45,955 nt of DNA from Lentisphaerota bacterium. GTDB lineage: Bacteria; Verrucomicrobiota; Kiritimatiellia; RFP12; JAAYNR01. Each line of letters opens with the position of its first letter. Position 1 is the stretch's first letter. Of the stretch, positions 19,181 to 22,638 are shown in pieces. Both the position numbers and the translations under genes were made by a program. The stretch lies in contig VGWG01000012.1 of NCBI GenBank assembly GCA_016873675.1, positions 1 through 45,955 of the forward strand, in the 5' to 3' direction. The notes under the pieces were generated by a model that worked only from the letters and a program-made list of their open reading frames with translations, was not told where the DNA came from and did no database searches.

Positions 19181-19564
19181 CGTCATACCTCCCCCTTGTG
19201 ATCGTTCGTGTTCCATCACGGCCGCAGCCGCGTCAGGCCCGATGAGTCGTTACCACCCTTAACGCACAGACCGCAAGCATTATTGTCCGATCCGCCCGCA
19301 ATCCTCCGTGAGAAACCGATTGTACTCATCCAAAATTAACATCCGCTGTTCATATCTTTTTAATCCTTTTACAATACCTCCTCTTCTGCCCCTTATTTAT
19401 ACGCTCAATTCGTTTAAATATAGAGACTTATGACATTATAACCGCTTGTTCATATCGTGTTGGCAACCTGTTGATGCTTTGAACACTTTTTCTTCTTGCC
19501 CGGATGCGGGGATTGGTGTCTCATGGTGCCTTCATGCGGCATCTTTTTTTCAAGGCTTACTCTT
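19181..19564. other. AT-rich dnaA upstream region, candidate origin
   Basis: No gene in this 384-base region. It holds AT-rich stretches (notably 19394-19440) and two identical 10-base motifs TGTTCATATC at 19347-19356 and 19447-19456, exactly 100 bases apart. A related TGTTGATGC occurs at 19469. On the other strand these read as (N)TATGAACA or GCATCAACA, resembling a DnaA box with A in place of the second C. Together with the dnaA-dnaN gap it is the leading oriC candidate. Confidence 0.45.
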
Positions 19565-20953
19565 ATGAACGCGACAACGATTTGGACCAAAGCATGCGAT
19601 CAGATCATGCAAATCATCAATAAAAGCCAGTATGAGGCCTGGTTTGCCACGTTGCGGCCGCTCGGGCTGGAGCGGGACACGCTCCTGCTGGGCGTCGACA
19701 ATGATTTCAAACAGACATGGATCGAGGAGAATTACCGCGACGTGATCGCGTCGGCGTTGCAGGTCGCGTCGGGCGGCGACTCCGTGCCGTTCCGCTTCGT
19801 GGTGAGCATGGAGGATGCGGGCGGTGTTGACGCCGCAGAACTGCTGCCCACATCGGCGCCGCTGAAGTCCCCTGCGACGGCGAAGCGACGGCCGCGCATG
19901 CAGCCGACGTTGGCGGCCAATCTCAATCCCCATTTCACCTTCGAGGAATATGTAATCGGGCCGTCGAACAGTTTCGCCCACGCCGCCGCGACGGCCGTCG
20001 CGCAGGCTCCGGGGCGCACCTACAACCCCCTGTTCATCTATGGTCAGACCGGGCTTGGCAAGACCCATCTGATCATGGCGATTGGTCATCGCGCGGTGCA
20101 AAACGATCCCGAGACGCGCGTGGCCTACGTCACATCGGAGGCGTTGTTGAATGAGTACATAGACGCGATCCAGAAAAACGCGGTCACCGAATTTCGCAAC
20201 CGCTACCGCAAAGTCGACATTCTGCTGGTCGACGACATCCAGTTCCTCGTCGGCAAGCAGCGTCTCCAGGAGGAGTTTTTCCACTGTTTCAACGACCTCC
20301 ACATGAAAGGCAAGCAGATCGTGATGACCAGCGACCGACCGGCGCGGGAAATCGACGGCCTGGAGCAGCGGCTGGTCTCCCGGTTCGAATCGGGGCTCGT
20401 CACCGAGTTGGAATGTCCCGACTTCGAAACCCGCATGGCCATCCTGCGCTACAAGCAAAGCGCCTCCAAGGTGGTTCTTTCCGACGCCTGCATGACGTTC
20501 ATCGCCCAGCACGTCACATCGAATGTGCGCACCCTCGAAGGGGCGCTGTTGCGCGCGATCACCTTCACCACGCTCAATCCCCACCCGCTGACTCCAGACA
20601 ACCTGCAAAACCTTCTGAAGGACGTTTTGACTCAGGAGACTCAGGAAGATATCTCGTTTGATGAAATCCAGCGCATCGTCGCCGAACACTTCGATCTGCG
20701 CCTGACCGACATGTCCAGCAAGCGCCGCCCACGCTCCGTCGCGATGCCCCGGCAGGTGGCCATGGTGCTGTGCCGAAAACTGACCCGCTCCTCGCTTCCT
20801 GAAATTGCGAAGGCGTTTGGCAAAACGCATGCCACGGTCATTCACGCCTGTAAATTGATCAAGGTCATCATCGAGACCGATCCTGACCTGGCCAAACAGA
20901 TTTATGCGGTGGTCCGCAAGCTCGGCCGCGACCCCAAGGATATCGATTTTTGA
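19565..20953 (+). CDS. dnaA: Chromosomal replication initiator protein DnaA
   Basis: A 462-aa AAA+ initiator. The N-terminal DnaB-contact domain (MNATTIWTKACDQIMQIINK) is followed by a linker, the ATPase domain with Walker A GQTGLGKTHL and Walker B ILLVDDIQFL, and a C-terminal helix-turn-helix domain (KRRPRSVAMPRQVAMVL...). Start ATG 19565 begins at the conserved N-terminus. Upstream in-frame codons from 19496 do not look like DnaA. The recognition loop reads FGKTHATV (residues 418-425), one residue shorter than the classical FGGRDHTTV and lacking its Asp. Followed by a 311-base gap and then dnaN. Confidence 0.97.
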   Translation: MNATTIWTKACDQIMQIINKSQYEAWFATLRPLGLERDTLLLGVDNDFKQTWIEENYRDVIASALQVASGGDSVPFRFVVSMEDAGGVDAAELLPTSAPLKSPATAKRRPRMQPTLAANLNPHFTFEEYVIGPSNSFAHAAATAVAQAPGRTYNPLFIYGQTGLGKTHLIMAIGHRAVQNDPETRVAYVTSEALLNEYIDAIQKNAVTEFRNRYRKVDILLVDDIQFLVGKQRLQEEFFHCFNDLHMKGKQIVMTSDRPAREIDGLEQRLVSRFESGLVTELECPDFETRMAILRYKQSASKVVLSDACMTFIAQHVTSNVRTLEGALLRAITFTTLNPHPLTPDNLQNLLKDVLTQETQEDISFDEIQRIVAEHFDLRLTDMSSKRRPRSVAMPRQVAMVLCRKLTRSSLPEIAKAFGKTHATVIHACKLIKVIIETDPDLAKQIYAVVRKLGRDPKDIDF

Positions 20954-21180
20954 ACCGTTTTATCGCTGTTTGCAACCCGTTGACAACATGAGTAAAAACC
21001 GTCAGTTCCCTGTCAACAGATCCGGATCTATGAACACTTACCCACGCGTTTCAACTTCCATGAACACCCGTTTTCAGCTTATAAACAGATCATTAGGTGT
21101 TTGTTTTTTATTGCAACCTTTTATAAATAAACCATTTACGATCTTATCAACCGCTTTATTCAGGCTTATTAGTAAGGATG

Positions 21181-21208
21181 TTGCATTTAAGTAATGACTT
21201 GTTATACT
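21181..21208 (+). promoter_or_regulatory. Candidate promoter of dnaN
   Basis: TTGCAT at 21181-21186 and TATACT at 21203-21208 are 16 bases apart. The start would fall near 21215, immediately before the triple CAACCGCG repeat. Confidence 0.6.
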
Positions 21209-21215
21209 ATTCTCT

Positions 21216-21239
21216 CAACCGCGCAACCGCGCAACCGCG
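21216..21239 (+). repeat. Triple tandem repeat CAACCGCG in the dnaN leader
   Basis: Three perfect copies of CAACCGCG (21216-21223, 21224-21231, 21232-21239) lie at the predicted 5' end of the dnaN mRNA, 25 bases before the ATG. Copy number could vary by slippage. Confidence 0.85.
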
Positions 21240-21264
21240 CATGGAGTACGCAGGAGGATCACGG

Positions 21265-22359
21265 ATGAAGTTCTCAATCGCCCGCTCGAAGTTTTTGGAA
21301 AGTCTGCAAACCGTTCAGAACGTGGTTTCGGGTAAAAACACGTTGCAGATTCTTGCCAATGCGCTGATCAAGGCCGAGGACGGAAAACTGTGGATCACGA
21401 CCACCGACTTGGATATGTCGGTCCGCAGTTTGATTGAGGCCGAGGTAACAGTCGATGGATGCACGACGTTGCCGATTCGCCGGTTGGCAAGTATTGTGCG
21501 TGAGTTGTCCGAAGGGCGCATTTCGTTCGACGTGGATGACAAGGACGTGGCGGCCATTGAGTGCGGCGCGTCGTCCTTTCGCATCAACGGTTTGCCGATG
21601 AGCGACTTTCCACCCATTCCCGGGTCGGACGGACGGATGTGTTACCGCATCGATCAGGGGGCGTTTCGTGAAATGCTCCGGAAAACGTCGTATGCCGCCT
21701 CGCTCGATGAAACCCGCCGCGTGCTCAACGGGGTGTTGCTGGCCTTCAAGGATGGAAAACTGACGATGGTCGCCACGGATGGCCGCCGCTTGGCGTTGGT
21801 CGAGCACGAAGTTGAATTTCCACCCGAAAACGATGTGGAACTGATCCTGCCGACCAAGGCCGTGACGGAATTGGTCCACATTTTGGGCAACGACGGAGAC
21901 CTCCGCATTTTTGTCCAAAAAAATCAGGTGATTTTTGAGTTTGGCAACACGATGATGAGCAGCAAGCTCGTGGACGGCGTTTATCCGAATTACCGTCAGG
22001 TCATTCCGTCGGGTTGCGACGAGCGTGTGGCGCTGGAGCGAGAGGCGCTGTTGACCGCCTTGCGGCGAGTCTCGATCATCGCATCCGACAAATCCAATGC
22101 CACCAAGCTGACGTTCGCCGCGAATCAGCTGGAAATTCTGAGCACCAGCCCAGACATCGGCGAAGCGCGCGAACTGCTGCCAATCAAATTTTCAGGCAAG
22201 CCTATCAGCGTCATCTTCAACCCGGAGTATATCATGGATCCGCTGAAGAGCCTCGATTGCGACGAGGTTTTCATCGAGATGAACGACGGCAACAGCCCGG
22301 CCATTCTGAAGTGTGACATCCCGTTCTTGTACGTGCTGATGCCGCTGCGGATCAGTTAA
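21265..22359 (+). CDS. dnaN: DNA polymerase III subunit beta (sliding clamp)
   Basis: A 364-aa beta clamp, close to the usual 365-370 aa. MKFSIARSKFLESLQTVQNVVSGKNTLQILAN opens domain 1, FREMLRKTSYAASLDETRRVLNGVLLAF is the domain 2 signature, and the C-terminus reads YVLMPLRIS, the canonical V-M-P-x-R/K tail. CAGGAGG lies eight bases before ATG 21265. An in-frame ATG at 21178 precedes the promoter and is rejected. It is the processivity factor for the replicative polymerase. Neither recF nor gyrB follows; instead rpmE and prfA do. Confidence 0.97.
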   Translation: MKFSIARSKFLESLQTVQNVVSGKNTLQILANALIKAEDGKLWITTTDLDMSVRSLIEAEVTVDGCTTLPIRRLASIVRELSEGRISFDVDDKDVAAIECGASSFRINGLPMSDFPPIPGSDGRMCYRIDQGAFREMLRKTSYAASLDETRRVLNGVLLAFKDGKLTMVATDGRRLALVEHEVEFPPENDVELILPTKAVTELVHILGNDGDLRIFVQKNQVIFEFGNTMMSSKLVDGVYPNYRQVIPSGCDERVALEREALLTALRRVSIIASDKSNATKLTFAANQLEILSTSPDIGEARELLPIKFSGKPISVIFNPEYIMDPLKSLDCDEVFIEMNDGNSPAILKCDIPFLYVLMPLRIS

Positions 22360-22434: not shown

Positions 22435-22638
22435 ATGAAGAAGGAAATCCATCCGAATTACGCTGAAGCGACGATCACCTGCGCCTGCGGCCACGTGACC
22501 AAAACGCGCTCGACCGTCACGGAGATGAGCGTCAACACCTGCTCGGCCTGCCATCCGTTCTTCACCGGCCAGCATACGATGATCGACACGGAAGGCCGTG
22601 TCGATCAGTTCCGCAAGCGTTACGCGGCCAAGAAGTAG
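22435..22638 (+). CDS. rpmE: 50S ribosomal protein bL31 (zinc-binding type)
   Basis: A 67-aa large-subunit protein. MKKEIHPNYAEATITCACGHV is typical bL31. The cysteines CAC (16, 18) and CSAC (36, 39) make it the zinc-containing C+ form. It terminates in RFRKRYAAKK-like basic residues (VDQFRKRYAAKK). It has its own promoter and precedes prfA by 154 bases, a common arrangement. It likely does not encode the zinc-independent replacement form. Confidence 0.96.
   Translation: MKKEIHPNYAEATITCACGHVTKTRSTVTEMSVNTCSACHPFFTGQHTMIDTEGRVDQFRKRYAAKK

Follow-up and report, generated by a model that had tools for sequence, protein, structure and literature searches.

What does an initiator read once it has lost part of the loop with which initiators read DNA? 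Few protein-DNA pairs in bacteria are as conserved as DnaA and its box, and in Escherichia coli Asp433 and Thr435, two residues of the recognition-helix tip, are reported box contacts. The dnaA gene on the 45,955-nucleotide stretch of Lentisphaerota DNA analysed here (the window) encodes a protein in which both are replaced. The answer we consider probable is that loss of Asp433 has shifted DnaA specificity from C to A at position 6 of the nine-base box (C6 to A6), with the origin boxes co-evolving.

The protein is a bona fide DnaA. Its gene (19565-20953, + strand) is an uninterrupted frame of 462 codons plus stop, and the ATG at 19565 is the start common to relatives of the same genus and family. 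The 462-aa replication initiator matches the TIGR00362 DnaA profile at full length (residues 7-453; 505.9 bits, cut-off 343.9). Pfam finds DnaA_N, Bac_DnaA and Bac_DnaA_C in order, that is, domains I, III (AAA+) and IV (helix-turn-helix); the single Bac_DnaA_C match across the genome is this gene. The AlphaFold2 model is intact (mean pLDDT 87.5), with an ordinary helix-turn-helix (helices 411-417 and 422-438), and its closest fold matches are DnaA structures. Against NF009087, which we take to be the chlamydial DnaA model, the protein reaches 233 bits, below the cut-off of 657. Downstream lies dnaN, for the DNA polymerase III beta subunit (21265-22359, +; domain and profile matches). A short ORF just 3' of dnaN (22435-22638) resembles, by eye, ribosomal protein L31 (MKKEIHPNYAEATITCACGH...).

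The changes fall in domain IV (Bac_DnaA_C, residues 365-431; 20657-20857, +), from Pfam and the model the predicted box-binding domain. Residues 418-425 (20816-20839, +), the recognition loop and the start of the recognition helix, read FGKTHATV. In the alignment with E. coli domain IV (PDB 1J1V) this becomes FG-KTHATV against FGGRDHTTV, a one-residue gap with Lys for Arg432, Thr for Asp433 and Ala for Thr435. T421, H422 and A423 correspond to D433, H434 and T435, and the D433-H434-T435 triad of the canonical code is absent from the window DnaA. Equivalents of H434, T436, V437, H439 and P423 are kept. In the basic loop KRRPRSVAMPRQ (20720-20755, +), R388 corresponds to E. coli R399, and K386-R387-R388-P-R390...P395-R396-Q397 to the R399/R407 segment. 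The first-pass annotation had described this short loop, the Asp-to-Thr and Thr435-to-Ala replacements beside a conserved His and Thr-Val, the retained KRRPR...PRQ segment and an in-frame change in an otherwise intact protein; translation, alignment and profile score bear it out in each respect. Base-contacting residues have been reported as R399, P423, D433, H434, T435 and H439 (PMC7561715) or, in an alternative set, as 399, 423, 432-435 and 438-439 (PMC5043019).

Relatives from the genus and the family, whose proteins are 95% and 73% identical to this one, have identical or closely similar loops, and so do members across the window's order; the loop is therefore not a sequencing error. In the window's class the short loop is found in every member sampled, and residue 433 is T, N or S in nearly every case; on the DnaA tree Pontiella (Kiritimatiellia) falls among these members. 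Judged by such relatives the phylum is probably the GTDB Verrucomicrobiota, other classes of which have short loops in families f42, f54 and f60 and full-length loops in f41, f44, f46, f48 and f50. The suggestion that PVC relatives might share the loop thus holds in part. Short loops that retain Asp were seen in a Tissierellia and a cyanobacterial MAG (L135, L136).

The origin probably lies at the dnaA locus, because the cumulative GC skew of the window, taken base by base, reaches its minimum at 21236, inside the dnaA-dnaN spacer (20954-21264, 41% GC), and because both dnaA-flanking spacers are G+C-poor (41-46%, versus 54%-70% across most of the window). Together with the upstream intergenic region (19202-19564, 46% GC), the spacer would make up a putative oriC, whose placement rests on GC skew and gene context. 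Word searches find putative DnaA boxes in both parts: ATATGAACA twice upstream (19347-19355 and 19447-19455, both -), and, in the spacer, CTATGAACA (21028-21036, +) and TTATAAACA (21079-21087, +), with a weaker putative box CCATGAACA (21058-21066, +) and a near-match, TTATCAACC (21144-21152, +), as a weak candidate. The CTATGAACA box overlaps the nine-base run TATGAACAC, a joint-longest invariant run of the spacer when three genomes from the family are aligned. The window's putative boxes have G, A or C at position 5 and A at position 6.

The 675 bp of dnaA flanks contain four TATnAACA words (by individual word, three copies of TATGAACA and one each of TATAAACA and TGTCAACA) and no TATnCACA, while the rest of the 46-kb window has one TATnAACA. 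Pattern searches of the organism's own genome (3.17 Mb) return 72 exact TATnAACA, and nowhere else do they lie as densely as the four that share 1.75 kb at dnaA; TTATnCACA occurs 21 times, never at dnaA, so that no canonical TTWTNCACA origin cluster was found there. The prediction made from the letters, that the box would differ from TTATCCACA, is thus in keeping with the putative boxes that accompany the loop change, and the word it had suggested, TTATNAACA, matches those found de novo in the order, with TTATCAACA ranking first. Two further sites were noted. The dnaA start region (19563-19571) has TTATGAACG, which differs from an A6 box at a single base and may be an autoregulatory site or chance; elsewhere in the genome, away from dnaA, two TATCAACA words 100 bp apart (G000:C49:698-805) may mark an extra DnaA-binding locus.

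The de novo search counted over-represented 8-mers beside dnaA, no motif being assumed. In the window's order (50 genomes), the top 8-mers are TATCAACA (55 seen, 1.2 expected) and TTATCAAC, with TATGAACA also high (25 against 1.2). The counting is validated by its recovery of TATCCACA in Bacillota (191 against 1.5) and of TATTCACA in Verrucomicrobiota with D433 and Gly at 435 (41 against 0.6). Written as boxes, these are TTATCAACA for the window's order, TTATCCACA for Bacillota and TTATTCACA for the D433/G435 Verrucomicrobiota. Full-length loops outside the class give A6 words as well: TATCAACA in the N433 family f48 (15 against 0.23; box word TTATCAACA) and TGTCAACA with S433 (16 against 0.13; box word TTGTCAACA). 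The short-looped N433 family f42 yields TATTAACA (40 against 0.95).

A sceptic might suppose that the A6 words belong to another regulator, or simply come with AT-rich intergenic DNA, and that DnaA still reads canonical boxes elsewhere. The words are, after all, putative boxes, at an origin located by skew and gene context. However, they stand about 18-fold above shuffles while keeping the DnaA-box frame TTAT...ACA, rank top de novo in tens of genomes, and cluster solely at dnaA, where they replace the canonical words; we regard this explanation as unlikely.

Position 6 was scored at 295 DnaA loci in strand-unambiguous TATn[6]ACA words beside dnaA. Words of the form TGTNNACA, counted at first, were dropped because each is another such word on the opposite strand; the final counts are restricted to TATNNACA. 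Full-length D433 loops have C 372 : A 120. With T433 the counts are A 111 : C 9 for short loops and A 8 : C 1 for full-length ones, and with S433 A 13 : C 0 (132 A : 10 C for Thr and Ser together). N433 gives A 31 : C 3 in full-length loops and A 114, C 42, G 30 in short ones. Against first-order shuffles, on a smaller set, C6 at D433 has an observed/expected ratio of 36 in Bacillota, 21 in other phyla and 19 in Verrucomicrobiota, with A6 at 2-6; for T/S433 in the window's order the ratios are 18.5 for A and 1.8 for C. AT-rich D433 genomes carry A6 as a secondary letter (A at 5.6 in Bacillota). With families divided by residue as the units, the median C/(A+C) falls from 0.675 for D through 0.2 for N to 0 for T/S; Mann-Whitney tests on these phylogenetically non-independent units give p=1.6e-7 for D against non-D and p=0.013 for N against T/S. 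The replaced residue, the words beside dnaA and the way the two covary from genome to genome are all directly observed.

The window's DnaA departs from that of E. coli in both residue 433 and loop length, and the first-pass annotation had pointed to the missing residue. Could the one-residue deletion, rather than residue 433, determine the new box? The whole class of the window is short-looped, and A6 is commoner with short than with full loops. Yet A6 is also what accompanies N, S and T433 in the full-length loops of this phylum; Mycobacterium tuberculosis, with an equally short FG-RDHTTV, retains C6 in its box TTGTCCACA (PMC4285127); and the short D433 loops of the Tissierellia and the cyanobacterial MAG retain C words, though alongside A. 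Taken with the de novo words of the full-length loops, the counts indicate that 433, not loop length, tracks the base. Loop length was rejected as the determinant on these grounds, and the deletion is in our judgement a very unlikely cause. The short loop is ordinary, since those of M. tuberculosis and Thermotoga maritima are equally long; it is a separate change that by itself has no effect on the box.

A different objection is that constraint was relaxed: the loop drifted, DnaA became broadly specific and the box words drifted neutrally. N433 lineages of the window's class do take A, C and G at position 6 with no strong preference. The T/S433 preference, by contrast, is directed, and the remainder of the box is conserved, so that drift is a highly improbable account.

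On a DnaA tree built without domain IV, loss of D433 is rare; the D/non-D boundary offers only 2-3 independent contrasts, for which reason a sign test is powerless, and among so few, the pairs that differ in box usage leaned opposite to expectation. Asp apparently returned twice inside the non-D clade, in L161 and L179, but with very few words to count C6 is not clearly regained there. Families with N433 disagree (C is the favoured letter in f15 and f10, A in f42 and f48); therefore other residues contribute.

Several loci fall outside the pattern or raise questions of their own. In family f54 (L271, L273-L277), the loops FEKTHPTV and FDKSHPTV resemble FNRSHPVV of T. maritima, with Pro at 435; neither canonical nor A6 boxes were found beside dnaA. 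Acidobacteriota MAGs L119 and L144 have His at 433 (FGGKHHTTV or FGGKHHSTV) and no TRTNNACA words beside dnaA; they may use another box, or have the origin elsewhere. Box words are likewise scarce or absent beside dnaA in family f44 (L186-L188, L057, L043), where the origin may lie elsewhere. Two reduced genomes of the same phylum, G128 and G147 (0.9 Mb, one contig, 99% complete), give no Bac_DnaA_C match and are possibly DnaA-less symbionts. One genome of the window's order has a second DnaA (L006, G090:C173) with loop FGNRDHTTV, distant from its kin in the tree and probably from a foreign contig; a Nanoarchaeota-labelled contig with a bacterial dnaA (L077, FGGRDHGTV) probably reflects a mixed bin.

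How, then, might the shift of specificity through loss of Asp433 work? We infer that the window DnaA binds the A6 words and that residue 433 contacts position 6. This full-length DnaA carries Thr421 in its DNA-reading loop in place of the near-universal Asp433, and Ala423 in place of Thr435; the loss of Asp433 would abolish the preference for C at position 6. Thr or Ser in its place would then prefer A, and origin boxes would now be TTAT(C/G/T)AACA; Asn would go with A, or with mixed A, C and G. The retained equivalents of Arg399, Pro423, His434 and His439 would go on reading the remaining box, TTAT....ACA. The more general form of this idea makes 433 a one-residue switch for position 6 (Asp for C, Asn for A, C or G, Thr or Ser for A), with much of the phylum now using TTATnAACA and N433 a permissive intermediate; we lean towards it, though only slightly.

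Known systems put the proposal in relief. Position 6 is C in every 9-mer box tabulated in PMC4285127 (Table 1). The canonical pair of E. coli and Bacillus subtilis (TTATCCACA; consensus TTWTNCACA) shares with the window the domain order, the helix-turn-helix, the R399, P423, H434 and H439 equivalents, the frame TTAT....ACA and the dnaA-dnaN origin context; it differs in D433 (here T), T435 (here A), one more loop residue and C rather than A at position 6 of the putative box. Epsilonproteobacterial DnaA reads T5 boxes, core TTCAC, with changes at 435 and 438-439 (PMC5043019). This is again a class-wide shift at one box position, accompanied by substitutions where helix 5 begins, but there position 5 becomes T and D433-H434 stay, whereas here position 6 changes and D433 is lost; the T5 plus C6 pattern was not found among the window's putative boxes. 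In T. maritima too the loop lacks one residue and has Ser in place of D433 (FN-RSHPVV), but its box, AAACCTACCACC / ACCTACCAC (PMC10316083), deviates at most positions, whereas the window's differs from the canonical only at 6, plus freedom at 5; the words that de novo counting finds in that order are of the TATnAACA type for the window, and no ACCTACCAC type was found among them. The M. tuberculosis loop (PDB 3PVP/3PVV), as long as the window's, keeps D433-H434-T435. A predicted TTATCAACA box has been reported on one cyanobacterial linear chromosome (PMC4674748); the part of the literature covered yielded no report of a clade-wide A6 box.

The changed residue and the changed words together suggest that a protein-DNA code which is normally all but fixed has, in a large bacterial group, been rewritten from TTATCCACA to TTATnAACA. 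Origin searches commonly presuppose boxes that resemble TTATCCACA and have C6; those that do would overlook or misplace the origins of this clade. The natural variants (D, N, T and S at 433; long and short loops) offer a ready test set for how an essential initiator and its many sites can change specificity jointly, and the residue-base covariation hints at a design for orthogonal DnaA-oriC pairs. Position 433 may have company: in Verrucomicrobiota with FGGRDHGTV (L035-L059, L192-L204), D433/G435 goes with TTATTCACA, which has T at position 5 as in epsilonproteobacteria, and residue 435 with position 5 is a possible second residue-base pair.
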